64,000 nt of DNA from an uncultured Verrucomicrobiota bacterium (GTDB taxonomy: Bacteria > Verrucomicrobiota > Verrucomicrobiia > Limisphaerales > UBA9464). Position numbers and translations under genes: made by a program. The DNA lies in NCBI GenBank assembly GCA_903922605.1, contig CAIXUG010000001.1, positions 1-64,000 on the forward strand, written 5' to 3'. Below the pieces are notes generated by a model, which did no database searches, was not told the origin of the DNA, and saw only the letters and a list, made by a program, of their open reading frames with translations. Positions 1,707 to 21,630 of this stretch are shown piece after piece. Position 1 is the first letter of the stretch, and every line of letters starts with the position of its first letter.

Positions 1707-3266
1707 TCACTTCTGCGGCTGCGGATTGCGCCACTCGCGGCCGTCGGCGGCCAGCAGGTCGTCGGCGGCGGTCGGGCCCCAGGTGCCGGCCAGGTAGAAC
1801 TCCCGGTTCGTGAGCGGCTTGTCCACCCAGGCGTTGCGGATGCTGTCCACGATCCCCCAGGCCGTCTCCACCTCGTCGCGGCGGATGAAGAGCGTGGCGT
1901 CACCGGCGATGGCCTCCAGCAGCAGCCGCTCGTACGCCTCGGGCGTGTAGGCGCCGAACTCGGTGTCGTAGCTGAAACGCATCCGCACCGGCCGCAGCTC
2001 CATCGCGGCCCCGGGCACCTTGCCGTTGAAACGGAGCGTGATACCCTCGTTGGGCTGGAGTCGCAGCGTCAGCGAGTTGGGGTCGAGCTTGGTCTCGGAT
2101 TTGGCGGCGAAAAGGATGTTCGGTGCGGGCTTGAACTGGATGCGGACCTCGCTCGCGCTGAGCGGCAGGTTCTTGCCGGTGCGGATGTAAAACGGCACGC
2201 CGGACCAGCGCCAGTTGTCGATGAGGACCTTCATGGCGACGAAGGTCTCAACATTCGACTTCGGGTTGACCTTCGGCTCGCTGCGGTAGGCCGGGCGCAC
2301 CTCGCCATCCACCTCGCCCGCGAAATACTGGCCGCGCACGACGTTCTTCGCGACGTCGGCCGGCGTCATCGCGCGGATGGACCGGAGCAGCTTCACCTTC
2401 TCGTCGCGGATGTTCTCGGCCTCGAGCGAGACGGGCGGTTCCATGCCGACGAGCGACAGCACCTGCAGGACGTGGTTCTGCACCATGTCCCGCATCGCGC
2501 CCGATTCCTCGTAGTAGCCGCCGCGTGAGCCGACGCCGATTTTCTCGCCGACGGTGAGCTGGACGTGATCGATCGAATCGCGGTTCCAGAGATGTTCGAA
2601 AATGCCGTTGGAGAAGCGGAAGGTCAGGATGTTCTGGACCGTCTCCTTGCCGAGGTAGTGGTCGATCCGGAAAATCTGCCGTTCATGGGCATGGCGGACG
2701 ATCTCGGCATTGAGCGCGCGGGCGCTTTCCAGATCGTGGCCGAAGGGCTTTTCCACGACGAGCCGGTCAGGCGTAAAGCCCTCCTCCTTGCGGAGCAGGC
2801 CGACCGCGCTGAGATTTTCGGAAATCTCGCCGAACTGGCTGGGATTCGTCGCCAGATAGAACAGCAGGTTGGAGCGGAGCTTTTCGTGCTCAAGACCGCC
2901 AATCTGGGCCTTGAGCTTTTCGTAACCGGCCCGGTCAGAAATGTCCGCCTGGCAATAGAGCACATTGGCCGCAAAGGCCGCCCAGACCTCGTCGTTCACC
3001 GGCTTGGTCCGGGAAAACTGGTTCAGTGCCTCCCGTAGCTCGTTGCGCCACGACTCATCCGTCTTCTCGCGCCGGGCGAAACCGATGATCTTATAGGGCG
3101 TGGGCAGCGCCTTCTCGAGGGCGAGGTGATAGAGGGCCGGGATCAGCTTGCGGGCGGTCAGGTCGCCCGAAGCGCCAAAGATGACGACCGTGCAGGGCTC
3201 GATCTGGCGGCGGGGCTGGACGGCGCGGGAGGCCAGAAGTTCATCAAGACTGGACGAGTCGTTCAT
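1707..3266 (-). CDS. zwf: Glucose-6-phosphate 1-dehydrogenase
   Basis: Catalyses NADP-dependent oxidation of glucose 6-phosphate to 6-phosphogluconolactone, the first step of the oxidative pentose phosphate pathway, in the cytoplasm. At 519 residues it is of normal length. The N-terminal Rossmann motif is IFGASGDLTARKLIPAL (about residues 29-45) and the active-site signature is RIDHYLGKETVQNI (about 200), containing the substrate-binding His-Tyr and Lys. The C-terminal domain (RLQPNEGITLRF, YERLLLEAIAGD) is intact. The ATG at 3266 is 120 nt from the divergent prfC start. No pgl or gnd lies nearby, so the pathway is not clustered here. Confidence 0.97.
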   Translation of the reverse strand: MNDSSSLDELLASRAVQPRRQIEPCTVVIFGASGDLTARKLIPALYHLALEKALPTPYKIIGFARREKTDESWRNELREALNQFSRTKPVNDEVWAAFAANVLYCQADISDRAGYEKLKAQIGGLEHEKLRSNLLFYLATNPSQFGEISENLSAVGLLRKEEGFTPDRLVVEKPFGHDLESARALNAEIVRHAHERQIFRIDHYLGKETVQNILTFRFSNGIFEHLWNRDSIDHVQLTVGEKIGVGSRGGYYEESGAMRDMVQNHVLQVLSLVGMEPPVSLEAENIRDEKVKLLRSIRAMTPADVAKNVVRGQYFAGEVDGEVRPAYRSEPKVNPKSNVETFVAMKVLIDNWRWSGVPFYIRTGKNLPLSASEVRIQFKPAPNILFAAKSETKLDPNSLTLRLQPNEGITLRFNGKVPGAAMELRPVRMRFSYDTEFGAYTPEAYERLLLEAIAGDATLFIRRDEVETAWGIVDSIRNAWVDKPLTNREFYLAGTWGPTAADDLLAADGREWRNPQPQK

Positions 3267-3385: not shown

Positions 3386-4237
3386 GTGACTTTGCAGGAA
3401 GAAATTCAGCGCCGGCGCACCTTTGCGATCATCTCGCATCCGGACGCCGGCAAGACGACGCTCACCGAGAAGCTGCTGCTCTATGGCGGCGCGGTGCAGC
3501 TTGCCGGCTCCGTGACCGCGCGCAAAAACCAGCGCGCCACCACCTCCGACTGGATGGAGCTGGAAAAGAAGCGCGGCATCTCGATCAGCTCAACCGTCCT
3601 GCAGTTCGAGTACGACGGCTACCGGGTGAACCTGCTCGACACGCCGGGCCACAAGGACTTCTCCGAGGACACCTACCGGGTGCTCACCGCCGTGGACGCC
3701 GTCATCATGGTCATCGACGCCGGCAAGGGCGTGGAAAACCAGACGCGCAAGCTCTTCGAGGTCTGCGCGCGGCGGGGAGTGCCCATCTTCACCTTCATGA
3801 ACAAGCTCGACCGCCCCGCGCGCGATCCCATCGCGCTGATGGACGAGCTGGAGGCGGTGCTCGGAATCAGGACGTGCGCGCTGAACTGGCCGCTCGGCAA
3901 CGGCGCGGATTTTCGCGGCGTGTACGACCGCGCGGAAAAGAAGGTCCACCTGTTCGAGCGCGTCGTGGGCGGCAAATACCGCGCGGCCGTGAATGTGACC
4001 GGCCTGGACGATCCGTTGGTCAGCGGTCAGCTCGACGCGCAGACCTACGCGACCGTGCGCGAGCAGATTGAGATGATCGAGCTGGCCGGTGCGGAGTTCG
4101 ACCATGAAAAGGTGCTGGCCGGCAAGCTGTCGCCCGTCTTCTTCGGGTCCGGCGTCAACAACTTTGGCGTGCAGCTACTGCTCGACAGCTTTCTGAAATA
4201 CTCCTCCGCTCCCCGGGGGCGGATGGCGATGGGCTGA
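3386..4237 (+). pseudogene. prfC: Peptide chain release factor 3, N-terminal (G domain) fragment of a split gene
   Basis: RF3 is the GTPase that recycles RF1/RF2 from the ribosome. This 283-codon fragment holds a complete G domain: G1 SHPDAGKTT, G2 RGISISS, G3 DTPGHKDF, G4 NKLD. It continues to LLLDSFLKYSSAPRG, the linker before domain II, then reads four or five foreign codons to a TGA at 4235. A GTG at 3386 fits the family start (VTLQEEIQRRRTF). Upstream, TTGGAG, an 18-nt spacer and TACGGT end 9 nt before the GTG, a possible promoter with almost no leader. The remainder of RF3 resumes at about 13314. The fragment alone cannot be a normal RF3; whether both halves act in trans is unknown. Confidence 0.88.
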
Positions 4238-5083: not shown

Positions 5084-8000
5084 TCACGGGACGGTCACGG
5101 TGCGCCAGTAGGAGGGGCTGGGCGGGCTGGGATCGGTATAGGTGGCGAAGCCGCTGGCATCCGCCGTGACGGTGGTCAGCGTGGTCCAGGTCACCGGCGG
5201 TGTCAGGCCGCCGGAGCGCTGCACCTCATAGTGCGTCCCGGGGATGCCCGCGAACTTCAGCAGCACATCGGGGCCCACCATGGTGACCGACACCAGCGCG
5301 GTGCCGTCGCCGGAGCTGCTGCCCACGGTCACCGTCACGATCCCGGTGATGATGTTCACCCCGTCGCTGATCCTCACCTCGAAGCTGTCATCGCCGACAT
5401 AGCCCGCCGGCGGCGTGTAGCTGATCGTCTTGGGCGGCCCGCTCAGCAGGGCCACCGTGCCGCCCTGCAGGCTCACGCTGTCCACCGAAGGGACCGTCCG
5501 GGTCGTCCCTTCCGGGTCGCTCGTCTTCGCGATGATCTTCGACACCAGCACCGACACAGAGGTGTTCACCGAGCAGTTGAACCCATAGCCAGCGTAAGCG
5601 GGAGGCTCGTTGATGTTCCCAATGGTGACAGTCAGCACCTTCTCAAAAGTCAGCCCGCCCACATCCGTCACCCGCACCCGGACAGAGTAGCTGTTCTGCG
5701 TCTCGTAATCGAACACCGCCGCGGTCTGCACCGTGTTCCCCACGATGCTGAAGCTGGAGTTGTCCGTATCCCCGGTACCCGTCACCAGGCTGAAGCTCGC
5801 CGTGTCGCCCAGCGCCGCATCCGGGTCCGTCGCCGACAGCGTGCCCACCGTCGTGCCCACCGCCTGGTTCTCCAGCACCGTCGCCGGGCTCAGGCTGATG
5901 TCCGTCGGGGCTGAGGTGTCCTGGGCGGTCGTGAAGGTCAGGTCGGCGCCGAACTGCGCGCCCGCGACATTGGTTCCCGCCACGCGGTAGTGGTAGGTCG
6001 TGTTCGGGGTCAGCCCGGTCAGGGTCGCACTCACCGCCTGGTCCACCGTCCCGTTGTCCGGGGTCAGGGTGATCGCGCTCACGGTCCCGTAGTTCGTGTC
6101 CGCCCCGCTCTCGAACACCGCCACGGTGCTCAGACCGTTCGGGTTCACCGTCCCGTTCAGGGTCGCCCCGGTCAGCGTCAGGCCGGTCGCCGCCAAAGTG
6201 GTCAGCACGGGGGAGTTGTCCACGGTGAAGGCCGTGCTCGGACCGGCAGCCGGGGCCAGGTTGCCGGCCGTGTCGCTGGCGGTGCTCGCCGCGAGGCTGA
6301 TCCCGAGAGTGCCCACGCCGCTCAGGCTGGAGAGGGTCACCGTTCGGGTGCTGCCCGAACCGGTGACCGCGACCGAGCCCGCGTCGGCGCTGCCGGTCTT
6401 GTTCAGCGTGATGTTGCCGCTGCCCAGGGTGATGCTGTTCTCCCCGCTGTAGGTCACGGTGTACGTCACCGGGCCGGTCGTGGCCGTGCTCGCCGACGGT
6501 GCGCTGATCGCGATACCCGGGGGCGTGTTGTCCACCGTGAAGGTCGCGCTCGGCCCGGCTGCGCCGGCCAGGTTGCCCGCCGTGTCCGAGGCCGTGCCAC
6601 CGGCGATGGTGATGCCCAGCGTCCCGTCGCCGGTGATCCCCGAGAGCGTCACCGTCCGCGTGCTCCCGCTGCCGCTCACCACCACGCTGCCGGCCGAGGC
6701 CGTGCTGGTGCCGTTCACCGTGATGTTGCCGGCGTTCAGCGTGGACCCGCTGAAGTTCGCGTCGCTGTAGGTCACCGTATAACTCACCGGCCCGCCTGCC
6801 GTGAGGCTCGCCGAAGGCGAGCCGATCACGATCCCGGGGGCGGTCTTGTCCATCGTGTAGGACTGTCCCGCGTACGGCAGCGAGGTCGAGAGCGTGGGCG
6901 AAAGACCCGTCGAATAGGCCAGGTTCAGCGTCAGCGTGCCACCGGATGATCCCGTCGTCACCGGCACGCTCCACGTCAGGCCGCCGTCGCCCGTCGTGGG
7001 GGTTCCGACCGTCGCTCCGGTTGCCGCCGTTCCGCCCAGTGTGAAGTTCCCCGACGCGACCCCCGTCACTGCCGACCCGAACGTCAGCGTCCAGTTCACC
7101 GTCCCGGCATTCGAGGGGGTTGCGTTTGCCCGGTTCAACGAGCTGACCGTCGTCGCCGGCGTCGCGCTGATATTGAGCGTCACAATCCCGACGTTGGACT
7201 GGATGAAGGTGGTATCGACCGCCTGGTAGGTAAAGGTATCCGTGCCCGAATAACCCGTGGTCGGGGTGTAGATGAAGCTGCCGTCGGCATTCAGCGTCAC
7301 CGTGCCATGGCCGGGGGAGGCGATGAGCTGGACACCCTGGATGTTGTTGTCCAGATCCGTGTCATTCTGCAACAGCCCGACGTTGGGCGCGGCGGTCAGG
7401 CTGCCATTTTCGTTCAGTGAGTAGCTGTCGTTCACCGCTACCGGCGCGTTGCCGGAGACAAAGCTGCTCTGCTGGATGAAAACGTCCGAGTCGTACAGGG
7501 TGTCGAAGGTGTCGGCGATGGCGATCTTGATGTGGTTGACGACCCCCGGGGTCACGGAAGCCTGGGCAGAGAAGACCGTCGTGATCCCGTCCAGTTCGGT
7601 ATTGTAAACCTTGCCCGTGTTATCGCGGTAATACTGCGCGTTGTGGGGATTGGTCCCGATCGGGTTGCCGCCGTTGACGTTGTTGATGGAGACCGGAGTC
7701 GTGGTGCCCGGAATCAGCGCGCAGTTGTTCGCCGCCGCGTGGCCATTTACAAAGAATCCAAAAACATCATTGAACTGGGTGTTGGCATATTCCGGGTATT
7801 CCTCCGAGCCAAATACATAGCGGAAGGCGATCGTCGGAAAGGTGGGAACAAAGTCGAATTCCAGGATCGTCGCGTCATGCAGGGTGCTCGCCGAGACTCC
7901 GATCAGCGCGGCCAGGTCGGCGTCTCCCGCCAGATTGAGGGTGAGCGTGGTGTTGGCGGCGGCGTTGGGGCCGACCACATTCTGGACGCCGCCCGAGCTG

Positions 8001-8296: not shown

Positions 8297-8881
8297 AAGT
8301 TGATGGGGGATGAATACCTACTTTTAAAACCTTCTGATTATCATATCAGCCTTGCAATACCAATCTCACCTCCCGGCTGAAAACCCGTCTGAAAACATGG
8401 AACGGTACGGCGGAAGGGATTCACGGCTGCGGAATGACTCCGTAGAGCCGCAAGTTGGCCAGGCAATGAGGACGATGCGGGGGTGTTCACAAATGATGGG
8501 CGGCGAATGCGTTTTTGGGCAACCAACACGGGCTCATACCTATAAGTACGGAAATGCGGGGGAGACTTTACCGGATTTTCGAAAGATTTTTCCCGGACCG
8601 ACGGAGACGGCGCGCAGCGCCTTCCCGGTGGCTGCGCAGAGTATCGGGCCCCGGGGATGGAAACAATTGACCCCCATAGGTTTGAATCACGGGTGACCAA
8701 ACTGGCGGATTTCCCGTGTTCACGGGGGCTGCGGCAGGGTTGTGACGCCGCCACGACGGTGCAAACGCTGGTTTGGGGCGGGAATAGAGCGCGTCGGAGG
8801 ACGACACGACGAAGCCCTGCCGTCGCCGCTCATGGAGTTCCAGAACGGCTGCTGGCATGGGCACCAGCTCCAACGTGCGCC
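8297..8881. other. 585-nt intergenic region with no supported gene
   Basis: This lies between the start of the adhesin gene and the corrected end of the kinase gene. Open frames here lack motifs, good starts and family resemblance. The part next to the adhesin (about 8300-8350) is AT-rich (cctacttttaaaaccttctg) and is the likely promoter region for that gene. I saw no tRNA, terminator or convincing small protein. Confidence 0.5.
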
Positions 8882-11800
8882 CTACCGGCCAGGTGCTTCC
8901 CAGGCTTCGAGTGCTTGGCCGGGCGCGATATGTAAGAATACCGTGTCGTCCGCCGCGAAGCGCATCCAGTTGCGAGGTGCGGGTGCGTTCAGGCGCAGGC
9001 GTTCCCGGCGGATTTCCCCGGCGGCCGGCAGCGCATCCCAAAACGCCAGCGTGCGGTCGCCCGAGGAGGCGACGACCTTGCCGTCGCCGGAGACGGCCAG
9101 CGCCGTTACGCCGCCGGACTGCGCCCGCCAGCGCTCCGCCGGGAGTTCACATCATAGACCCGCACCCGGCCATCCTCATTCCCCACGAAGAGCCGACGTC
9201 CGTCCGGGTGGAAGGCGACCGCAGTGTCGAAATCCTCCGCGTTGCCCAGGGGCACGAAACTGCCGGCCACGTTGTCAGTCCGATACAGCCGTGCGTGCCG
9301 TCCGATGAAGCCGGTGACCGCAATCAGCCGGCCGTCCGGTGACACATCCACGCAGTTGACACCACTCGGGCCGTAAAGCATCCGCTGGTCATCCGTGCCG
9401 GAGGTTTTGCGGTGTTCGAGATCCACCACCAGCAGTTTGCCGGGAATCAGGCCGACGAGCGTTCGCTCATCCCGTGAAAGCACGCCCCGCACCACCAGCC
9501 CGAAGCCCGGGTGCGAAGGAATGCCCTTCACCCGCCACAATTCACGCGGTTGAACGCGGTCGCCGATGGGTTCCCAGACGAAAATCTCGCCGGTGTCAAA
9601 ATGCCGCGTCACCGCCCGCCCGTCGCGCAGCACCGCCAGCGGGTAATGGGCTTCGGGATAGGCAATGCGCCGGTTGGACTGGCGGTCCCACAGCCAGGTG
9701 CGATTCGTATCGGCACGGTAGAGGACAAAGCGTCCGTCGGCCGAAGCCGCCGGGTGTTCCCAATAGTTCCAGGACCACACCCCACCGACGCGGGACCGGG
9801 AGATGGCGGCGGCCAGCGGCCAGCGGCGCAGCGTGCCATCGCTGCCGACGGTGGCGAGCGGGGCAGAACCGGGCAAAAACACCAGATCGCGTACCCGTTC
9901 GGTATGCCCCAGCAGAAACCCGTACTGCCCCTCCGCCGCCGAGCGGCTCAGCAGGTTGGCCGGGGGGAGCTGCGGTCCATCTTCGCCAAACGGCTGGGCC
10001 AGACCGGGAAAGGCCTCGTCGTCATAGCTGCGGGTAGTCGGTTCGGAGTCCAGCAGCCGGAAGGTCCGGAGCGTGGAGTCATCCGTCGCCACCGCCAGAA
10101 CCGGCTCATCCGGACTGAATGCCAGCGCATGGATCTGGGCCGGCAGAGCGACATTCAGGACCGGCGCGTTGCTGACGAGCGAGAACACCGTGACCCCCAG
10201 AGCCGTGCGTGCCTGGCGGCCGGTGGCCACGGCGAGATGCCGCAGATCGCCGGAAAATGCCAGCAGCGCCGGCGAGCCGTTGGTCAGGAGCAGCGTGTGC
10301 GCCGGGGCGGAAAGCCCGGCCGCCACCGACTTGAATTCGGCGGCCGGCAGCACCTCAACCCGCACGCCCTGAGGATGATCGCGCGACCACGCCAGTTGTT
10401 TGCGGTCGGAAGACAGCGCCAGCGGACCGTAAACCTCGCCGGTCAGCAGCTCTTCTTTGCCACTGGCCAGGTCGAAGACCCCGGAGCGGGCGGTGCCGTG
10501 CGCGCCCCACACATTGTTGCCGGCGAAGAGCACACGCGCGTCGTCGAGCCACACACCGTTCAGGCGACGACCGGCAGTCGAATGCAACAGACGGCCGGTG
10601 TCGGTCTCGGCGATGATCAGAATGTCGCCGTCACCACAGAGGAAGTGGCGGCTATCGGGAGAAAACGCCAGCGTGTACAGCCCGTGGTCGATGGCGATCT
10701 GGGTATGCTGCGCGCGCGGGTCGGACACGGTGATGCCGCTTTCCTGGGCACCGTTGGCGGGGTCCACCCAGCGCAAAACCCGGTCGTCCGTGATCACGGC
10801 CAGCCGCTGCCGGACCGGTTCCCAGGCAACACAGCGCGGCTCGGACTGGTCGAATTCGGTGCGCCGCACGTCATCGCCCCGGCTCAGCCATTGCAGCAGC
10901 CGCCATTCGAAGCCGCGCCGTTCCGGGGCCAGGCCATCGAGCAGTTGCCGAGCCCGGCCCAGATCGCCCTGTTGCCGCGCCGAAAACGCATGGGCTACGG
11001 TGGCAAAGTAGGCGTGGTCATTGGCCATGCGCTCGGCCTCAAGTGCCGAAGCGGCATTGCGGTCGGCCAGATTCCGGGCGGATTCGGCCCGCCGCCACAG
11101 TACGGTGGCGGTCACCGTCCCACCCACCAGCGCACAGGCCAGCGACGCCGCGAGCAGGGAGAGCTTCTTGTTCCGCCGCACCCACTTGACTGTACGTTCC
11201 AGCGGCGTGATCGGGCGCGAGCGGATCGGCTCGCCCCGCAGCCAGCGATCCAGCTCCTCCGCCAGCTCACCCGCGCTGGTGAGGCGGCGGGCGGGATCCT
11301 TTTCCAGGCAGCGCAGACAGAGAGTTTCGAGATCGGCGGGAATCAGATTCGCCAGCCGGGACTTGAAGGCCCCGGAGGAGGACGAGCCCTCGGTCGCCCG
11401 GCGGATTTCGGCGCTCGAAAATCGCGGCGGCTCCGTTTCGAGAATCTGGCGAAAAATCTCCGCATGGCCTTCGCCTGCAAAGGGGACGCGGCCCGTGAGC
11501 AGCTGGTACAGGATGGCTCCCAGCGCCCAGACATCGCTGGCGGTGCTGATTTCACGCACGCGTCCGGCGGCCTGTTCGGGCGACATGTAGTGAGGCGTGC
11601 CCAGCTGCGCGGAAGAGATGGTGAGCGAGCTGTCGGCATCCACCAGTTTGGCCAGCCCAAAGTCGGTGAGGTGCGGTTCGCCCGCCGCGTCGAACAGAAT
11701 GTTGCCCGGCTTGAGGTCGCGATGCAGCACGCCGTGCTGGTGCGCATACTGGACGGCCCGGGCGACCTTGGACATCAGCCCGGCAACCTCGCGCAGCGGA

Positions 11801-12276
11801 ATCCGCACCTCCGGCCAGGCCAGCCGCTGGGCCAGCGAACCGCCCTCCATGAGCTTCATGCTGATGTAGGGCTGCCGGTGGAGTTCGCCCACCTCGTAAA
11901 CCCGCACGATGTGCGGATGCTCCAGCCGGGCGGCCGTCTCGGCCTCGATGCGGAAGCGCGCCTTCTCGGCCTCGCCCATCAGCAGCACGCTGCGCAACAG
12001 CTTGAGCGCGACCGTGCGGTTCGCCCGGGCATCCACCGCCTCATACACCACGCCCATGCCGCCCGCGGCCAGCTCCCGCTCGACCCGGAAGTGCCCGAGC
12101 CGCGCGGGCAGTTGCGTGCCGTCAAAAGGGGTCTCGGTTTCGACCGACGGCGGCGGTGGTGGCTCCGTGAGGAGCACCTGCATCAGGGCGCAGGCGGCGC
12201 AGGGCTGATCTACGGGCGCGGGTGCCCCGCAGCTTCGGCAGACGCGCGGAGAGGAAGCGGCAGAAGGAGGATTCAT
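8882..12276 (-). CDS. Ser/Thr protein kinase with C-terminal WD40 propeller, carrying an apparent frameshift
   Basis: The N-terminus has a small zinc ribbon (CRSCGAP ... CAAC). The kinase domain spans about residues 60-345: glycine loop AAGGMGVVYEA, VALK lysine, catalytic loop HRDLKPGN, DFG and YMSPEQAAG. A membrane helix follows (LSLLAASLACALVGGTVTATVLW, about 373-395). The remainder is WD40-like repeats (HALAFSPDE, RDLVFLPGS, CVDVSPDGRLIAVTG), extracytoplasmic if the helix spans. The frame stops at 9106, but the neighbouring frame continues with RAQSGGVTALAVSGDGKVVA and FWDALPAAGEIRRERL to a TAG at 8882, clearly another blade. One base seems missing near 9136-9140. An ECF sigma factor lies upstream in the same direction, a pairing known in Planctomycetota and Verrucomicrobiota. 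Confidence 0.85.
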
Positions 12277-12453
12277 CTGCGGTCAGCGCCAGCGCCTGGG
12301 ATTACCAGAACAGGGTGTGATCACATCAACTTCCGGCCTGCCGCAGGCAGACGGGCAGGACGGGAGGAGAAAGCTTGATCAAGACCCTCGTCTCCTGTCG
12401 GTGCTGGTAAATGGTTCATCCCAAAGGAAAAGAAGGGAGTTTTGGCCGGAACC

Positions 12454-13188
12454 TTACTGCCGTAGCAGACGAACGAGGTGACGCAGCTCCTCCTCGACCT
12501 CGGCCGCATCCACCACCGTGGCCCGGATTTCCGCCCGGATGGTGGCGGCAAATTGCTGCCGCAAATCGTAGGCCGCCTTGCCCACCGCCCCCTCGCTCAT
12601 GGCGAGCCGGCCCCCGATGGCGGCATGCGTCTCGGCCTCAGGACTGCCATCCAGCGAGAGCTTCAGGGCCGCGAACAACGCCGCACGTTCGGACCATCGT
12701 TCGGCCAGCTGGGCAAAGGCGCGCGCAAAGAGATCCCTCGCCCAAGCACGCTCGAAGGCGACGTCCGGAGTGTCGGTGTCGGCAACAGCAGGTTCCAGGC
12801 GGAGTGTCTCCAGTTCATCCAGCGGCAGCAGGACGGCCCCGCCACCGCGCTTGACCGCTTGCGTCCGGTCGTGCTGGTCGCGCAGCCAGCGGCGGAAGGC
12901 CACCAGCAGGAAATTGCGGAAGCGACCCTCGCCGGGTCGCACATCGCGCAGGAAATCACGGCTGAGCAGATAGGCGAAGAATCCCTGCACCCGATCGGCC
13001 GCCGTGTCGTGATCGGCTCCGCGTCGGCGCAGGAAGGCGTAGAGGGGCCGCCAATAGGCCTGCGCCAGCCGTTCGAGCGCCGCCAGCGCGACCGGGGTGT
13101 CCGGTTCGCGGGCGGCGACAATCGCCGACCACAGCGTGGCCGGAAACAGCGCCTGCCGGGTGGCCGCGTCGTTGTCTAGGTTGTCCAT
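12454..13188 (-). CDS. ECF-type RNA polymerase sigma factor (kinase-associated)
   Basis: A 244-residue sigma-70-family protein. Region 2 is in ALERLAQAYWRPLYAFLRRRG and the following ADRVQGFFAYLLSRDFL. Region 4 lies near IGGRLAMSEGAVGKAAYDLR, a helix-turn-helix that reads -35 DNA. The tail RAEIRATVVDAAEVEEELRHL is typical of the long ECF sigma factors found next to Ser/Thr kinases. I chose the ATG at 13188 (MDNLDNDAATRQALF) because family members begin just before the LFPATLWS motif; an ATG 42 nt earlier is possible. The kinase gene follows on the same strand after 177 nt. The likely arrangement is kinase signalling to the sigma factor to control the same or nearby genes, which is inference. 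Confidence 0.88.
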   Translation of the reverse strand: MDNLDNDAATRQALFPATLWSAIVAAREPDTPVALAALERLAQAYWRPLYAFLRRRGADHDTAADRVQGFFAYLLSRDFLRDVRPGEGRFRNFLLVAFRRWLRDQHDRTQAVKRGGGAVLLPLDELETLRLEPAVADTDTPDVAFERAWARDLFARAFAQLAERWSERAALFAALKLSLDGSPEAETHAAIGGRLAMSEGAVGKAAYDLRQQFAATIRAEIRATVVDAAEVEEELRHLVRLLRQ

Positions 13189-13313
13189 GTCTGAGTGCTT
13201 GTGCGCAGTAGGCCACGTGGCCGCCGGCAAGGCAATGCCCCGGCGGGTTCGGGCTCGCCGGGCGGGCAGATTTCAGGTTGTCTGTCCGTCCCCGTCACCA
13301 CGGGGCATCATTC

Positions 13314-14096
13314 ATGTCAGGCGAAACGTCATCCGCCGGCCACCTAATCGAGCCGGAATACCCGCAGTTCTCCGGGTTCATCTTCAAGATCCAGGCGAAC
13401 ATGGACCCGCGCCATCGTGACCGGATCGCGTTCGTGCGCGTGGTCAGCGGGAAGTTCGAACGGGATATGGTGGTGACCCACGTGCAGTCCGGCAAAAAGG
13501 TGAGGCTCAGCTCCTCGCACAAGCTCTTTGGCAACGAGCGCGAAACGGTGGATGAGGCCTACCCGGGCGACATCATCGGCCTCGTCGGCCATGATGGCTT
13601 CGGCATTGGCGACACGCTCACCACCGACGCGAAGATCCGTTACGACGAGATCCCCCGCTTTCCGCCCGAGGTCTTCGAGTATTTCCACAACCCCAACACG
13701 GCCAAGTTCAAGCAGTTCCGCCAGGGGCTCGACCAGCTGCTGCTGGAAGGCGTGGCGCAGGCCTTTCACCTGACGAACACCGCGAGCCGGGTGCCGCTGC
13801 TGGCGGCGGTCGGTCCGCTGCAGTTCGAGGTGCTCCAGTACCGGCTCGAAACCGAATACGGGGCCGAGACCCGCCGGGAAGCCGCCCCGTTCCAGGCCGT
13901 CCGCTGGCTGCCGGTGGACACCAAGGCCGAAGATCTGGACGCCATTTCGCTGCCCACGGGTGCCCGGTTTGCCTTCGACCTCGACAACCACGCGGTGGCG
14001 CTCTTTCCGAGCGACTGGGCGCTGAACTATTTCGCCCAGAACAATCCCAAGCTGGAACTGGCGGCACTGGCCCCGAAGCGGGACGGCGGGGCCTAG
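13314..14096 (+). pseudogene. prfC: Peptide chain release factor 3, C-terminal fragment (domains II-III) of a split gene
   Basis: This is the other part of prfC. From about 13350 it aligns with RF3 domain II (FSGFIFKIQANMDPRHRDR, FVRVVSGKFERDM, VDEAYPGDIIGL). It continues through domain III (AVGPLQFEVLQYRLETEYG, VRWLPVDTK) to the natural stop at 14094-14096. The ATG at 13314 (MSGETSSAGHLIEP) is the nearest start, and another lies at 13278. Together with 3386-4237 nothing of the protein seems lost: the break sits in the linker after SSAPRG. It ends convergently with the phosphoesterase gene, overlapping by 4 nt. A free-standing protein lacking the GTPase domain would not be a normal RF3. Confidence 0.85.
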
Positions 14097-15232
14097 GGAG
14101 AATCCAGTCGGAAAAAGCCGAGGTCGCCGACCGGGCTGTTGGTCGCCGGCAGCTCAAAGACGGAGTCGGTGGCAACCAACTGAGACAGGACCGACCAATG
14201 CAACAGGTCCGTCGAGTTCCGCAGTTCGTAGGCACGGCCAGGTTCCGCCCCGGTGACCTGGAATTTCACGGGCCCGTGAGGAAAGCCGGGCTCCAGCGAA
14301 AGCCGGGGCGAGGAGGCCGGCTGAAACAGGTCGGCCAGATCGTTCGCGTTCGCGGCATCGCCGAGAAAAGGGCGCAGGGAGAAGATTTCCTGGACCGTCC
14401 GCAGCGTCGAGCTGTGGGTGTAATAGACCGAATTGTGATAACCACCCCCCTTGCCCAGCGGGGACAGGACGATCAATCCGATCGGGCCGTCGCGGGTGGG
14501 ATCCGTCGCGGTTTCCGCGCCCTCGTCCCAGGTGATAAAGACGGCCCCGCGGTCTTGAAAGGCGGGGGAGGCGGTGATGACTGCCAGCGTATCGCGCAAC
14601 CAACGGTCCCCCTGGGTCCGGGTGCTCGGCGAGCCGGGCGACAGGTTGTGCATGTCGTTGGTCAGGTTCGGGGTGATGAAGTTGAAGCGGGCGACCCGAC
14701 CGGCGGCCAGGTCCGGGGCGAGCTCGGTGAAGGGACGGACGTGATTGGTGCAATAGCCGAAGTCCGACGTGATGCCGGGAAAAAACATGAAGGGGTTGTG
14801 GCGCACGGCGTAGTTGCCGTTGTTCGTGTTCGGGATGTCATTCCCCGAGATATCCTCCTGATAGGTTCGCCACGAAACTCCCGCGTGATCGAGCTGGAAG
14901 GCGAGATGGTTGGTCGTGAGGTGGGCGTTGACGGACGGCGGCTGGTCGGACAAGGCCCCGAAATTGGTGCCGGCCACGAGCCAGATGTAGTTGGGTTCGC
15001 TCGGATGATTATTGGTCGGTGTGTAGTAGTTTTCCGCGAACGAAGCCTGCGGCAACAGCACCTGGTTTATGAAAGGACAGTGATTGGTGTCACGGATGGT
15101 TTCCCAGCTGTGGTTTTCCATCATGATGAGGAAAACGGTCCTGATTTCCGGCAGATCGGCGGTCGCGGACCACGACAGTCCGAAAACCAGCAACCCGAGC
15201 ACAGCCAATCGGTGGGCGGAGGGAAATTTCAT
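14093..15232 (-). CDS. Secreted phosphoesterase (acid phosphatase / phospholipase C-like)
   Basis: A 379-residue secreted enzyme of the phosphoesterase (alkaline-phosphatase-fold) family that includes AcpA and phospholipase C. A signal peptide (MKFPSAHRLAVLGLLVFGLSWSATA) precedes the metal/nucleophile motif VFLIMMENHSWETI. Further family motifs are NNHPSEPNYIWLVAG, FNFITPNLTNDMHN, FITWDEG and VLSPLGKGGGYHNSVYYTHSS with LRTVQEIF. The last 70 residues (YELRNSTDLLHWS ... GFFRLDSP) are a separate Verrucomicrobiota-style secreted C-terminal module. It probably hydrolyses phosphomonoesters or phospholipids outside the cytoplasm. It sits between the intact prfC 3' end and a second, diverged prfC tail. 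Confidence 0.87.
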   Translation of the reverse strand: MKFPSAHRLAVLGLLVFGLSWSATADLPEIRTVFLIMMENHSWETIRDTNHCPFINQVLLPQASFAENYYTPTNNHPSEPNYIWLVAGTNFGALSDQPPSVNAHLTTNHLAFQLDHAGVSWRTYQEDISGNDIPNTNNGNYAVRHNPFMFFPGITSDFGYCTNHVRPFTELAPDLAAGRVARFNFITPNLTNDMHNLSPGSPSTRTQGDRWLRDTLAVITASPAFQDRGAVFITWDEGAETATDPTRDGPIGLIVLSPLGKGGGYHNSVYYTHSSTLRTVQEIFSLRPFLGDAANANDLADLFQPASSPRLSLEPGFPHGPVKFQVTGAEPGRAYELRNSTDLLHWSVLSQLVATDSVFELPATNSPVGDLGFFRLDSP

Positions 15233-15324
15233 GCGCGGCGGTGCGGAACGAACGGAACCCGTCCCAGCCCTGAACTAAGCGTATTTTGAGCCAATCCCGA
15301 CGTGGACGCGAATTATTCTGCGCG

Positions 15325-15450
15325 GTCGGCTTGTTTTCGTTCCACTTCATGCACGCGGTGGCGCTCTTCCCAAGCCACTGGGCGCTGAACTGCTTCGCCC
15401 AGACCAATCCGAAGCCGGAACTGGAAGCGCTCGCGCCGAAGAAGACGTAG
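15325..15450 (+). pseudogene. prfC: Diverged duplicate of the prfC 3' end
   Basis: Read in frame to the TAG at 15448, this stretch encodes HAVALFPSHWALNCFAQ followed by TNPKPELEALAPKKT. The last residues of the prfC fragment ending at 14096 are HAVALFPSDWALNYFAQ and NNPKLELAALAPKR. The similarity fades upstream of about 15325 and there is no start. Substitutions are scattered, many at third positions, so this looks like a tail from a related prfC rather than a recent local copy. It lies 90 nt from the phosphoesterase start. Confidence 0.75.
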
Positions 15451-15613
15451 GCGCAAGGCCGGCAACCCCGGGCCAATTGCCGCCCTCAGAGACGGCAGCT
15501 TTCCCGCGAAGCGCCTCCCGGCCGTGCCAGGACCTAAAGCGCTCCTTGCGGATAGGACAAAATTCTGTCATAGAATACGCCAACCGTTACCCCCTCTGCC
15601 CACAACGGTTTCC

Positions 15614-18600
15614 ATGCGCATGAAAACTTTCCTCCATGCATGCTGCGTCGTCGGCCTGCTTTTCCTCGGGAACGCGGGTCTCGCGATCGCGCAAGCTGCC
15701 GACCCTACCGGCCCGGTGCCACCCGTCGCCTCCGCCACGCTCACCATCAATACGCCGTCACCGGGGCAGCAATTTGCTCAGGGCAGTCCGATCAACATCG
15801 ACGCCACGGCCGTGGACCCGGACGGGGAAATCCGCCGGGTCGAGTTCTATGCGGGCGACCTGTTGCTGGGTGTTTCGGAGATTTTGACGAAGGATGCGAT
15901 TGTCCCAGGACGGGCCCGGGACCATCATTTTGCCTGGACCAATGCGCCGGTCGGTGAATTTAAGCTGCACGCGAAGGCCAAGAGCACGGCTGGTCTCGCA
16001 ATCAATTCGCCCGCCGTCCCGATCACCGTGCTCGGGAACCCACTCAAGCCGAGTTTGACCATCACCTCACCCCAGGATGGCGCCACGGTCCGGGCCGACG
16101 AAACGAACAAGGTGGTGGCGGTGGGGATCGGTCGCGTCGGCGGGATTACCGATGTGGAACTGCTGCTCGATGGCCAGAAAGTTGCCGAGTCGCATCTCAC
16201 GTTCATCCGCGCACCGGGAGCCGACGAACCGGTGACCCACACATTCGCCGTCGTCATTGCCGAAGGTGAACACAAGCTGGTCGCCCGCGACCTGACCGAC
16301 CCGGCCCTCAGTTCACCCGCGGTGACAATAACGGCCCAAGGCGGCGTCGCCCTGGTCACCATCGCCACGAGCAAATCACCGGCCTACGAGCGCTCCTCGA
16401 CGGGTGACGTGAATGACCTGGCCAACCAAACCGGCAGCTTCCGGGTTACCCGCACCGGCGGTGACCTGACCATGCCATTGACTGTCTTCTACCTCCTCGG
16501 CGGCACGGCAACGCCCGGTACGGATTATCAGGTGCTCGACGCCGTTACCGGTGGACCACACCAGCCTGGCCCCACGAACCAGACCACGGTCCTGCGTTCG
16601 CTACAGTTTCCCGCCGGCGCGGCCACGACCGACCTCTCGTTTGTCGCCATCCCGGACAAGCTGACCGAGGGCACCGAAAGCGTTGTGGCCACGCTGATCC
16701 AGTCACCTTCGGCCGGGCCCATGCCGGCCGACTATGAGCTGGGCGAACCCCACGAGGCGACGGCCGAGATTCGTGACAGCGCCATGCCCGCGCGATTCGT
16801 GCTGCTAAACGCCCCGACCAATGGTGCGTCGTTCACCAACCCCGTGACGATTCACGTCGAGGCGACTGCCGAGATCACCGGCGTGGGCATTTCCGGCCTG
16901 GTCTTTGTCGCCAACGGCGTCGAGATCGGCCGTGCGCTATATTGCTGTGAAACCTGCCTCTGCACCGCGCCGGTTCCGGGGCAGCCCTTTTCCGGTAGCA
17001 TCGACTGGAAGGATGTGAAGCCGGGAACGTACAGGTTGGTGGCCAAGGCGTTAACTTCCCTGGATTCGATGCCCGAATCCGACCCGGTGACCATCACCGT
17101 GGTGGGCCCGCCGCCCACGCCGCAGCTTACCATCAAGCAGCCGACGAACAACGCCACGCTGCGGGACGACCAGAGCACCACCGTGATCGTCGTGGGTATT
17201 GGCCGCGTAGGTGGGATCACCGATGTGGAACTGCTGCTGGACGGCCAGAAGGTGGGCGAGTCGCACCTCAGCTTCATCCGTCCGCCCGGGGCCGATGAGC
17301 CGGTGACGCATGAGTTCTCGCTGCGCCCTCCCGTCGGTGACCATGAACTCGTCGCCCGCGATTTGTCCGACTCCACGGTCATTTCCCCGGTGGTCCACAT
17401 TCACGTGATCGACCCGAACCCGCTCGCCACGATGACCTGGGTGAAGCCGGAGGATGGCGATACGTTCCCAGCCGGCACGCCCATCGATCTGGAGGTCGCG
17501 GCGTTTGATCCCAAGGGCCTGATCTTCCATGCGGATTTTTACTCCGATGGCAAACTCATCGGCGGCGCCGACTACAGTTGTCCGCTCTGCAAACCGGCCC
17601 CCGGCGCCACCCTCTCGATTCCCTTCCAGTGGACCGGTGCGCCGCTCGGCAAACACCTGCTTGCCGCCGTGGCGACGAACTCGGCCGGACTCGCTGTCGG
17701 CACGAAACGCCTCACCATCGAGGTCACCGCGCCGCCCGCCCCGCGCATCGCGGCTGAGCGGACATTGCCCGCCGTCTTCCAGCCCGGCACGAAGTTCACG
17801 GTCAGCATCACCGTGATGCCCGGCACGAACGTGCAGAACTATGTCGTCGAAGATCACCCGCCCTTCCTCTTCCACGGCGGCGCAGTGCCGCCGCCCGACC
17901 AGCCGCTCTGGAACGTCACGGCGGTCAGCGATGGCGGCGTTTTCGACTTCGCCACGGGCGCGGTGAAATTTGGCCCGTTCTTCGATCACGAAACCCGGAC
18001 CCTGACCTACGAGATTACGCCGAATTCCGTCCCCATTGGGGTGGCGGAATTCGCCGGCACGGCGGTGGCCGACGGAGTTGCGGTACAAATCGGCGGCGAC
18101 CACCAGTTGCTCGGAGACCAGCGTCATCCGGCGGATCGAGATCCGGCGGATGACAGCATCAGCGCGACGGAACTCACGGCCTACGGGGCGGCCTGGAAAA
18201 ACGGTGGCACCTGGCCGCTCGGACCGAATCCGATTCCGGTCGATTACGTCACCCGGGCCGGCGCGCTCTGGCGCGAAGGTGAGCGCTATCGTTTCGATCC
18301 TTCCGCCGGCCCGGCCCCATTGTGCTGGGTGAGCAATCCGCTGCTGCCGCCCATCACGCCGGCAAACGGGGGCTCCACCACCAGCAGCGTGATCAAGAAG
18401 CCGGCATTCCACGGCATCGCGTGGCGCCGCGTGGAAGGACAGGCCGGCCAGAGCTTGAGCGTCACCGTGCGCGCTTTGCCGGCGCCGGATGTGAATGCGA
18501 TCGCCCTGGAAGAAAAGGTTCCCGGCACCCCGACTGCGATCAGCGACAACGGCACCTTTGACACCGCCACGAAAACGATCCGCTGGGGACCGTTCCTGGA

Positions 18601-18952
18601 CGGTCTGGCGCACTCCGTGACGTACCGCCTCGAAGGCGACGCGGCACGCCGTCCCGAGCACGGAACCGCTTCCTTCGACGGCTCCAGTGTGCCAGTGCTG
18701 CCCCTGGGCTCCGGTGACGCCACCGGGCCGCGCCTGGTCAGCGTCGGAGCCACGGATGATGGCGCGATGCAGGTCGTGGTCGAGGACGACACGATGAGCG
18801 CCACCACCGCCTACGAGCTGGAAGTCAGCACCAATCTTCAGCACTGGTCGAAGGCGGGTGCCTTCGTGAACGGCAACACGGCCGGCTTCGCCCGGGACGA
18901 GGTCCCCGCCACCATCGGGCCGCGTTTCTACCGGGCGGTGCGGGGGAACTGA
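15614..18952 (+). CDS. Large secreted multi-Ig / Calx-beta protein
   Basis: An 1112-residue secreted protein. I chose the ATG at 15614 (MRMKTFLHACCVVGLLF) because a signal peptide follows directly; the upstream in-frame ATG adds non-signal sequence. Domains in order: Ig-like (INIDATAVDPDGEIRRVEFY), a second Ig-like (IGRVGGITDVELLLDGQKV), a Calx-beta-like domain (FRVTRTGGDLTMPLTV, GGTATPGTDY), and an Ig-like domain with a Cys cluster (YCCETCLCTAP). Then comes a near copy of the IGRVGGITDVELLLDGQKV domain and a further Ig-like domain with YSCPLCKP. Two DUF11-like repeats precede the C-terminal YELEVSTNLQHWS ... FYRAV block. Possible role: cell-surface scaffold or matrix. No catalytic domain was recognised. 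AT-rich DNA just upstream (gacaaaattctgtcatagaat, 15554-15576 region) may contain its promoter. Confidence 0.8.
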   Translation: MRMKTFLHACCVVGLLFLGNAGLAIAQAADPTGPVPPVASATLTINTPSPGQQFAQGSPINIDATAVDPDGEIRRVEFYAGDLLLGVSEILTKDAIVPGRARDHHFAWTNAPVGEFKLHAKAKSTAGLAINSPAVPITVLGNPLKPSLTITSPQDGATVRADETNKVVAVGIGRVGGITDVELLLDGQKVAESHLTFIRAPGADEPVTHTFAVVIAEGEHKLVARDLTDPALSSPAVTITAQGGVALVTIATSKSPAYERSSTGDVNDLANQTGSFRVTRTGGDLTMPLTVFYLLGGTATPGTDYQVLDAVTGGPHQPGPTNQTTVLRSLQFPAGAATTDLSFVAIPDKLTEGTESVVATLIQSPSAGPMPADYELGEPHEATAEIRDSAMPARFVLLNAPTNGASFTNPVTIHVEATAEITGVGISGLVFVANGVEIGRALYCCETCLCTAPVPGQPFSGSIDWKDVKPGTYRLVAKALTSLDSMPESDPVTITVVGPPPTPQLTIKQPTNNATLRDDQSTTVIVVGIGRVGGITDVELLLDGQKVGESHLSFIRPPGADEPVTHEFSLRPPVGDHELVARDLSDSTVISPVVHIHVIDPNPLATMTWVKPEDGDTFPAGTPIDLEVAAFDPKGLIFHADFYSDGKLIGGADYSCPLCKPAPGATLSIPFQWTGAPLGKHLLAAVATNSAGLAVGTKRLTIEVTAPPAPRIAAERTLPAVFQPGTKFTVSITVMPGTNVQNYVVEDHPPFLFHGGAVPPPDQPLWNVTAVSDGGVFDFATGAVKFGPFFDHETRTLTYEITPNSVPIGVAEFAGTAVADGVAVQIGGDHQLLGDQRHPADRDPADDSISATELTAYGAAWKNGGTWPLGPNPIPVDYVTRAGALWREGERYRFDPSAGPAPLCWVSNPLLPPITPANGGSTTSSVIKKPAFHGIAWRRVEGQAGQSLSVTVRALPAPDVNAIALEEKVPGTPTAISDNGTFDTATKTIRWGPFLDGLAHSVTYRLEGDAARRPEHGTASFDGSSVPVLPLGSGDATGPRLVSVGATDDGAMQVVVEDDTMSATTAYELEVSTNLQHWSKAGAFVNGNTAGFARDEVPATIGPRFYRAVRGN

Positions 18953-18972
18953 AGAATCGGGGCGCCGGGAAG

Positions 18973-20589
18973 TCAGCGGGCCACGTCGGTCGGGGGCCGC
19001 GACTTGCCGCCCTTTCGCTTTGGCATCGGAACCCATTGTTCTACCGGCAGCGGCTGGGCCGCGACGGCACGCAGATCATCGTCTGAGAAGTCGACATCAG
19101 CGGCCATGTTTTCCCGAACCACCAGCCAGCCAACAACCACAACCAGACCCAGGATCGCGGTCGGCAGGAGGGAAAGGAAGGTCCCATCGACGGCAAACCA
19201 AAGACTGATGCCACTGCCAAGCAGCATGAACGCGGGCGTTTTCGTGGGATTGGATTCATGCACCACAGCCGCGGCATTCGCCGCGTGCCAGACCGATTGC
19301 GCGAACGAAAGCCAGCGCAGGGAGAGGCCATAGGCCAAGGGCCAGCACCACGTCAGGCCCCAAGCCAGCCAGTCACGGAGAACCAATGGCCCCGTGCCCA
19401 GGACCTTTTCCAGACTGAGCGCAGCCAGACCGAGCAACAAGAGCGCCCCACCACGGTCAGCCACCCGACGGAGCCGCTGCGCTTCGGCATTCAGCCCGTC
19501 GAACACTTCGCGGGGTTCGAGGCCGGTGGTGAGAAGCAGTTCGAACGCACCCTCACGCCGGTCCTCGGCGACCGGTTGGGAAACCGCCAGATGCAACAGG
19601 GTATCCACCGCCGCCACGTAACCCATGGCCGTGACCACCAATGCGGGCCACGGAAACAGGACGGCGGCCAGCACGCCACCCAGACCCAGGACGACTGTCA
19701 CCAAGATGATCCCATGGCCCCAGGAACGATTGCGACGCAGCCGCCAAGCAAAGACCGCATCCGCCGGCACCGGCAGTTGGCTTCGCCGCCAGGTCGCCGA
19801 GCCACCCCACGCATCACGCCAGCGACCGAGGAGCCCCTTTCCCTCGTCCTCGCTCCATTGCCGGTGAAACAGCCAGGTAGCCAGCCCTCCGAACAGCAGT
19901 GACCAGAGCAGAAATCGCAGCACCAATCGGCCAACCAATGCCCCGTCGTCATGGCCTGCACAGGTGCCGGGAATCCTCGTCCAGTCGCTCAGGCCGCCCC
20001 AGACATACAGCGCCAGGCGACCTGCCGGACCCAGGCGTGGAGCCAGCAGCCATTCCAGCGTGAGGGGAAGCCCAACGACGATGATCGTGAATCCGGCGGC
20101 GATCGAGTTCGCGGCGGCGACCGATCTGGCGTACAGCCGGCCAACGGCCCGCATGATCGTTCCAAACACGAGCACGACGATCGGTAACAGGATCAGGAAG
20201 ACGACACCCTGTGGCCGCGCACCAGTCCACCAGAGCCCGGTGATCAGGACGGGCACCATCAGAAGCGCACCTTCCAAAACCAGCAGCATGGAGCCCAACA
20301 GGCTGCCCCAGAACACTGCCGCCGAGTTCAAGCCGGCCAGCCGCAGCAGCGACTGGCTGCCCGCCTCCTGGTCGCTCGCAAAGAGCATCGGGCCGCGTGA
20401 AAGCGAGTACGCCACCAGCCCGAAGGCGACCTGGACCATGCCCAGCCTCATCCCCTGGCGGAAGACCAACAGCAGCAAGACCGCCACAACAGCGGCACCG
20501 CCCAGCGTCTTCAAGCGCGCCCGGATGGGCGGCCCACTGCGCGCCGCCACCCGCAGCTCGCGCTGGATCAGGGGAAGCAGGCCGCTCAT
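18973..20589 (-). CDS. ABC-2 type permease with two fused halves
   Basis: A 538-residue protein with 12 or more hydrophobic segments and no ATPase domain. Each half contains the ABC-2 permease hallmark, an acidic loop before a coupling helix: DQEAGSQSLLRLAGLNSA (about residue 72) and EDRREGAFELLLTTGLEPRE (about 340). The protein thus looks like two ABC-2 permease units joined in one chain. The C-terminus is short, charged and basic (MPKRKGGKSRPP). No ABC ATPase is adjacent; the nearest are at 39777 and 46300. Substrate unknown. It overlaps no gene, and lpxD lies 18 nt upstream on the same strand. Confidence 0.7.
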   Translation of the reverse strand: MSGLLPLIQRELRVAARSGPPIRARLKTLGGAAVVAVLLLLVFRQGMRLGMVQVAFGLVAYSLSRGPMLFASDQEAGSQSLLRLAGLNSAAVFWGSLLGSMLLVLEGALLMVPVLITGLWWTGARPQGVVFLILLPIVVLVFGTIMRAVGRLYARSVAAANSIAAGFTIIVVGLPLTLEWLLAPRLGPAGRLALYVWGGLSDWTRIPGTCAGHDDGALVGRLVLRFLLWSLLFGGLATWLFHRQWSEDEGKGLLGRWRDAWGGSATWRRSQLPVPADAVFAWRLRRNRSWGHGIILVTVVLGLGGVLAAVLFPWPALVVTAMGYVAAVDTLLHLAVSQPVAEDRREGAFELLLTTGLEPREVFDGLNAEAQRLRRVADRGGALLLLGLAALSLEKVLGTGPLVLRDWLAWGLTWCWPLAYGLSLRWLSFAQSVWHAANAAAVVHESNPTKTPAFMLLGSGISLWFAVDGTFLSLLPTAILGLVVVVGWLVVRENMAADVDFSDDDLRAVAAQPLPVEQWVPMPKRKGGKSRPPTDVAR

Positions 20590-20607: not shown

Positions 20608-21630
20608 TCAGGACTGGTTGCCCGCCCGCCGCTCCAGCTCATGCACGCGGCGGAGCAGCTCCGGCAGGCGTTCGGCGGCGAGGAGCTGGCGCTTCATCAC
20701 CCGGTCGGGTTGGGCGGGCGAGCCCATCCACTTCTGGCCTTCGGGGATGTGGTTCATGATGCCGGACTGGGCGACCAGCGTGACCTTGTCGCCGATGCGA
20801 AGATGGCCCGCCACACCGACCTGGCCGGCAATGGTCACGTAGTTGCCGATCTTGGTGCTGCCCGCGATGCCGACCTGCGCCACGATGATGCAGTGCTCAC
20901 CGATGGTCACGTTGTGGCCGATCTGCACGAGGTTGTCGATCTTGGTGCCCTTGCCGATGACGGTGGCCCCCAGCGCCGCGCGGTCGATGGTCACATTCGC
21001 CCCCAGCTCCACGTCATCGTGGAGGATGACATTGCCGACCTGCGGCACCTTGCGGTGGGCGCCATTGTCGAACACATAGCCAAAGCCATCCGCGCCGACC
21101 ACGGTGCCGGCATGGATCTGCACGCGGCGGCCCAGCACGGTGCGGTTGTAAAGAGTGACGCCCGGAAAGAGCCGGCTGCCCTCGCCGATCACGCAGTCGT
21201 CGCCGACATAATCCCGCGCCTGCAGCACCACCCCGGGACCGATCTTGGCGCGCTCACCCACGTGACATTGCGCGCCGATGTAGGCGGTCGGATCAATCCG
21301 GGCCGTGGCCGCGACAATCGCGGTCGGATGGATTCCTCCGGGAAACACCGGTTCGGGAAAGAACAGGGGCAGCACCTGGGCGAAGCCGACGCGGGCATTG
21401 GCCACGCGGATCAGCGTCTTGCCGCTGGCCGATTTGAAATCACCGGCCACCAATACCGCCGCCGCCGCGCTCTGGTCGGCCCGGAGGAAGTACGACTCGT
21501 TCTCGGCGAAGGTCAGGTCCCCCTGCTTGGCGGAATCTGCCGGGGCGAACCCGAGCAGCATCAGGGCGGGGTCGCCCAGCACCTGACCGTTCAGTTTTTC
21601 AGCAATCTGGGCGGCGGAAAATTCAGGCAT
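20608..21630 (-). CDS. lpxD: UDP-3-O-acylglucosamine N-acyltransferase
   Basis: Transfers a 3-hydroxyacyl chain from acyl-ACP to UDP-3-O-acylglucosamine, the third step of lipid A synthesis, so the cell should have an LPS outer membrane. At 340 residues it has normal length. The N-terminal uridine-binding domain includes EFSAAQIAEKLNGQVLGDP and AFVGFAQVL-like sequence. It is followed by a left-handed beta-helix of hexapeptide repeats (IGPGVVLQARDYVGDDCVIGE) and the catalytic His in QIGHNVTIGEHC. A coiled C-terminal helix (LLRRVHELERRAG) ends the protein. It is not grouped with lpxA or fabZ here. Confidence 0.96.
   Translation of the reverse strand: MPEFSAAQIAEKLNGQVLGDPALMLLGFAPADSAKQGDLTFAENESYFLRADQSAAAAVLVAGDFKSASGKTLIRVANARVGFAQVLPLFFPEPVFPGGIHPTAIVAATARIDPTAYIGAQCHVGERAKIGPGVVLQARDYVGDDCVIGEGSRLFPGVTLYNRTVLGRRVQIHAGTVVGADGFGYVFDNGAHRKVPQVGNVILHDDVELGANVTIDRAALGATVIGKGTKIDNLVQIGHNVTIGEHCIIVAQVGIAGSTKIGNYVTIAGQVGVAGHLRIGDKVTLVAQSGIMNHIPEGQKWMGSPAQPDRVMKRQLLAAERLPELLRRVHELERRAGNQS

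Follow-up and report, generated by a model that had tools for sequence, protein, structure and literature searches.

In the genome under study (G000, a 5.3-Mb draft in 90 contigs), a second, diverged copy of the 3' end of prfC, the gene for the translation-termination factor RF3 (release factor 3), lies beyond a phosphoesterase gene. This copy is probably a dead remnant of the end of prfC-C, derived from the ancestor of G000 and its nearest relative G004 and most likely generated by a local tandem duplication; the copied gene itself is, by its sequence, one of two separate, conserved halves of RF3. The window analysed here is a stretch of 64,000 nucleotides of contig C1.

The second prfC tail

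A self-BLAST of the window revealed a 90-bp ungapped direct repeat with 85.6% identity (E = 8.4e-20) between 13989-14078 and 15352-15441. The first copy belongs to the functional tail of prfC-C (13989-14096). The second copy (tail 2; 15352-15451, plus strand) is a pseudogene remnant that comprises the last ~100 bp of prfC-C and the stop codon (15449-15451). Its frame reads MHAVALFPSHWALNCFAQTNPKPELEALAPKKT*, and about 33 codons are left. The gene end is thereby repeated at both boundaries of the phosphoesterase segment. A first-pass annotation of the window had already pointed out a second, diverged prfC tail past the first one, at 15325-15450. The homology was confirmed; its start was placed too early, as it begins abruptly at 15352. 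When the C-terminal half of RF3 was used as query against the whole 5.3-Mb genome, tail 2 was the only second copy (2.1e-9); the remaining matches were 30-33% identical and lay in long frames resembling other translational GTPases. For the flank 3' of tail 2 (15452-15606) no convincing match was found in the loci of relatives. An Rfam search of 12000-19500 gave nothing, and the window contains no tRNA genes.

Decay and age of tail 2

The changes in tail 2 were polarised with the tails of 8 outgroup relatives. Among 7 assignable private changes, 5 were non-synonymous and 2 synonymous; 2 further synonymous changes could not be assigned. With 68.7 non-synonymous and 21.3 synonymous sites in the 90-bp tail, this ratio is near the unconstrained expectation. 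Four of the replacements (D>H, Y>C, N>T and L>P) affect nucleotide positions that are invariant in all 8 outgroup tails used. The in-gene tails of G000 and G004 are separated by 5 synonymous and 0 non-synonymous differences, a contrast to tail 2 that becomes weak if both unassigned synonymous changes belong to tail 2. In this small sample tail 2 is thus a truncated gene end without coding constraint, and it is most likely a dead, decaying copy of the prfC-C 3' end that has no function.

The synonymous divergence between the two tails (dS = 0.43-0.52) lies between the values obtained for the whole half in the pairs G000-G004 (0.18) and G000-G002 (0.87); the dating, like the decay test, rests on 90 bp and about ten changes. 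Tail 2 retains a few outgroup-like states that tail 1 has lost (the final KK and one third-position base), and otherwise the residues particular to G000 and G004 are present in it. These shared residues and the intermediate dS suggest a dead copy from the G000/G004 line, and tail 2 most likely arose in the common ancestor of both genomes after its split from G002/G003. G004 itself carries no tail 2. Its contig is collinear with the window over 13238-15351, and then ~35 unrelated bases replace 15352-15536, so that the tail has probably been lost in G004.

Gene order around the phosphoesterase gene

As described in the first-pass annotation, a single gene lies between the two tails. It encodes a phosphoesterase (PF04185; 14093-15232, minus strand) and is convergent with prfC-C, the overlapping stop codons sharing the bases CTAG at 14093-14096. 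Orthologues, one copy each, are present in every genome of g1, the genus of G000. Where the flank suffices, their neighbours are lpxD and a Gfo/Idh oxidoreductase gene. Since it is found in the genus with these same neighbours, the phosphoesterase gene is a resident gene and not inserted cargo.

In G002 and G003 the order is Y(+), phosphoesterase(-), lpxD(-). In G000 it is prfC-C(+), phosphoesterase(-), tail 2, Y(+), 18973(-), lpxD(-), and the order in G004 is identical minus the tail. Gene Y (15524-18952, plus strand), which follows tail 2 on its 3' side, encodes an Ig-like domain protein (PF17957); its orthologue in G002/G003 is found at the opposite flank of the phosphoesterase gene. The orthology is supported by the Y of the window being the best match at 654 bits, the next gene of G000 reaching 153. 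Repeated Ig-like domains are visible in Y as an internal repeat (16081-16323 and 17152-17394, 72%). The place that the phosphoesterase gene has in G002/G003 is occupied in G000 by a gene for a 538-aa probable membrane protein (18973-20589, minus strand) without a match in Pfam or NCBIfam. A decayed phosphoesterase was considered for this gene and ruled out, as there is no similarity. It is followed by lpxD (20608-21630, minus strand; TIGR01853), which adjoins the phosphoesterase gene in the genus.

This arrangement would be explained if prfC-C originally lay upstream of Y, phosphoesterase and lpxD. A tandem duplication reaching from within the final 100 bp of prfC-C (left end) to the phosphoesterase promoter region (right end) would then have copied the segment tail-Y-phosphoesterase. 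Subsequent loss of the first Y and of the second phosphoesterase gene would leave prfC-C, phosphoesterase, tail 2, Y and lpxD. One duplication and two losses would account for the order in G000. They would also explain why tail 2 begins abruptly next to the phosphoesterase promoter region and why Y directly follows tail 2. Among the relatives, no genome with the intermediate order prfC-C, Y, phosphoesterase, lpxD was seen. Overall, an ordinary local rearrangement is the most likely mechanism. The first-pass annotation had taken the duplicated end as a mark of site-specific integration or of gene replacement; its direction towards rearrangement or replacement holds, the integration part is not supported.

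RF3 encoded by two genes

The gene from which tail 2 was copied encodes the C-terminal half of RF3. prfC-C (13314-14096, plus strand; start region as in relatives) contains domain II and RF3_C (PF22042 and PF16658 within 13302-14093) and matches positions 283-526 of NF001964 and 284-524 of TIGR00503. The GTPase half is a gene of its own, prfC-N (3386-4237, plus strand), which matches NF001964 as an RF3-type GTPase over positions 4-282 (E = 1.7e-131) and TIGR00503 over 5-282. Its start codon (GTG at 3386) was picked by analogy with the lengths in relatives, and it ends just after PRGR. RF3 is not present as one polypeptide: no single match in the genome exceeds the curated RF3 cut-off of 466.95 bits, the two halves scoring 408.8 and 235.1. 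Compared with Escherichia coli RF3 (2H5E), the N-half covers 8-282 and the C-half begins at 288, which places the split point within the linker that joins the G domain to domain II. A split intein was ruled out from the ends of the halves only: the N-half ends 4-9 aa past PRGR and the C-half starts about 10-18 aa before FSGF, leaving no room for intein halves.

On its other side prfC-N is flanked by zwf (G6PD; 1707-3266, minus strand; TIGR00871), and within the genus this neighbour is conserved for prfC-N and one-piece prfC alike. The 1-kb genes between the halves encode a protein kinase carrying WD40 repeats and a protein with cadherin/Ig domains; RND pumps, which had been considered for them, were ruled out. 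The cadherin-like gene has a 73% internal repeat (6209-6543 and 6520-6861). The protein kinase/WD40 and sigma-factor-like genes (within window positions 8302-13238) are missing from the G004 contig (L073), where the Ig-domain gene and prfC-C are separated by only ~330 bp.

To define the distribution of the split, 58 genomes of relatives were searched with both RF3 halves and the ends were read. Separate halves, the N-half with its own stop and the C-half with its own start, were found in at least 22 sampled family genomes. In 22 of them the N-half stops 4-9 codons after PRGR (variants PQGR, PKGR and PLGR), and a possible start of the C-half's own is found shortly before FSGFIFKIQANM. The halves are often far apart or on different contigs. 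In G016 they share one contig, at 97 kb and 271 kb (~173 kb apart), and in genus g3 each half has one fixed neighbourhood. Both orders occur within one genus, N-X-C in G000 and C-X-N in G002/G003 (C76 and C33; L076 and L077), where the two halves share a strand and the C-half comes first, opposite to the arrangement of the window. Where dS was measurable, pairwise comparisons among split genomes gave dN/dS values of 0.02-0.06 (N-half) and 0.02-0.09 (C-half), with similar values for one-piece genes. Judged by these sequences, the split halves represent a stable two-gene RF3, both genes being under strong purifying selection, and their products would form a working RF3 without a covalent link. 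The first-pass annotation had counted the split gene towards prfC as an insertion site; a fresh interruption does not agree with halves that exist as separate, stable genes across most of the family. The 80 named loci of the GTDB collection comprised 75 in one piece, 4 cut by contig edges and only 1 that was split. This locus (L093, Verrucomicrobia bacterium isolate RE-27jun17-205) has 83% identity and probably comes from the same family. No report of a split RF3 was found in a literature search of limited reach.

One-piece prfC was found in 8 genomes, namely in G005-G007 (G006 was seen in part) and in genera g2 and g6. The linkers of the one-piece family members, at 19-25 aa, exceed the 12-13 aa found for two outgroups and are about as long as the two overhangs added together, a hint of re-fusion of the halves. 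We also considered whether G005-G007 acquired their one-piece prfC horizontally. In the rpoB tree these genomes adjoin the split G002/G003 (92-96% support). The concatenated RF3 tree groups all split g1 genes together and disagrees with the rpoB tree on the branching inside g1; an AU test did not reject g1 monophyly. The split may stem from a single fission followed by re-fusions or from repeated fissions. It is likely that most of this verrucomicrobial family makes RF3 as a two-subunit factor, with a GTPase subunit and a domain II/III subunit encoded by two genes that are often unlinked and are kept by selection. In some members one-piece prfC may have come about by re-fusion or by replacement, and the tail copies seen in two genera would be traces left when the C-terminal gene moved.

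Alternative origins of tail 2

The same anatomy could also be produced by gene replacement, in which an incoming prfC-C with its phosphoesterase gene recombined on one side and was joined illegitimately on the other, so that the native tail stayed in place. The outgroup-like states that tail 2 has kept would fit such a native origin. We nevertheless regard replacement as unlikely: the phosphoesterase gene is native to the genus, and its native neighbours lpxD, Gfo/Idh and Y are found together with it in one stretch; the prfC-C of G000/G004 groups with that of G002/G003, so that a foreign origin is not visible; and replacement would not account for the altered order of Y and the phosphoesterase gene. 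The tandem duplication includes this change of order.

Very doubtful is an origin of tail 2 as the last piece of a worn-away second prfC-C, or of a whole prfC, from the duplication and loss that split the gene. Immediately upstream of tail 2, positions 15280-15351 show a weak resemblance to prfC (p = 0.005 versus random window segments), and the occurrence of both N-X-C and C-X-N orders in one genus would suit such an event. However, the equivalent stretch of G004 lacks the resemblance (p = 0.46). Moreover, the split is shared by G000/G004 and their sister pair G002/G003, and the halves of both pairs form one group, which makes tail 2 probably younger than the split.

The first-pass annotation had favoured prfC as a repeated insertion site. 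An element that integrated site-specifically into the prfC 3' end with its own copy of the gene end would leave att sites at both tails, and indeed the repeat begins within the gene and continues as far as the stop codon; its upstream edge includes an exact match of 17 bp (CACGCGGTGGCGCTCTT). A tail copy of similar size is found in one further genome, G014, which belongs to another genus. This lone copy (C48:26371-26478; L176:17371-17478, minus strand) is 117 bp long, ends at the stop codon, is 95% identical to the end of G014's own prfC-C and starts within a few codons of the start of tail 2 of G000. But it lies away from the G014 prfC-C, which is on another contig, and ~7 kb from the N-half, and its nearest neighbours are an unassigned ORF and the trigger factor gene. 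G014 is the only other family genome with a second tail among 42 family genomes with a prfC tail, and 2 of 42 genomes with an extra tail do not establish a hot spot. Profile searches for tyrosine integrases (PF00589) and resolvase-type serine recombinases (PF00239) gave matches on other contigs only and none on C1 above the threshold of E 0.001. The supposed 1.36-kb element would consist of one resident gene with conserved neighbours, which is present in all g1 genomes and thus neither foreign nor absent from relatives with an empty site. The comparison with relatives, which the first-pass annotation had asked for, was decisive: G004 has prfC-C and the phosphoesterase gene but no tail 2, and G014 alone also carries a second tail. 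Integration is considered highly improbable. Least credible of all is an assembly artefact (a collapsed or chimeric contig), which the draft state of the genome in 90 contigs might suggest, because the copies are 14% different, tail 2 has its own pattern of decay, and the junctions prfC-C/phosphoesterase and Y/18973/lpxD recur in G004.

Implications and comparison with known systems

While tail 2 itself is ordinary scar tissue, the family-wide split of RF3 is the context of greater interest. The nearby prfC, which looks interrupted, is not broken; RF3 rather appears to work as two separately encoded halves throughout the family. If this is true, the family offers a natural test of whether the GTPase domain of RF3 and its ribosome/RF1-binding domains need a covalent link. 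The split is also a trap for annotation, as each half stays below the NCBIfam cut-off for prfC and pipelines may call RF3 missing or broken.

The defining activity of RF3 is to promote the departure of RF1/RF2 from the ribosome. With respect to known RF3 (prfC; TIGR00503/NF001964; structure 2H5E), the two halves together cover 4-526 of the 529 positions of NF001964 and contain the G-domain motifs HPDAGKTT, DTPGH and NKLD as well as RF3_C. The difference is that two genes are used here, with the break in the G domain/domain II linker, and that neither half alone reaches the family cut-off. ICEs of the SXT/R391 family integrate at prfC, in its 5' part. The arrangement in G000 resembles such an integration in having the gene end on both sides of another gene. 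It differs in that no tyrosine integrase or resolvase-type recombinase was found on contig C1, in that a resident gene lies between the repeats, and in that the 3' and not the 5' end is involved. The closest likeness is to a partial gene duplication, or pseudogene remnant, at a rearrangement junction, with which tail 2 shares the truncated gene end, the abrupt start, the lost coding constraint and the absence from the nearest relative; we infer the exact steps in the present case and see no essential difference from such remnants.
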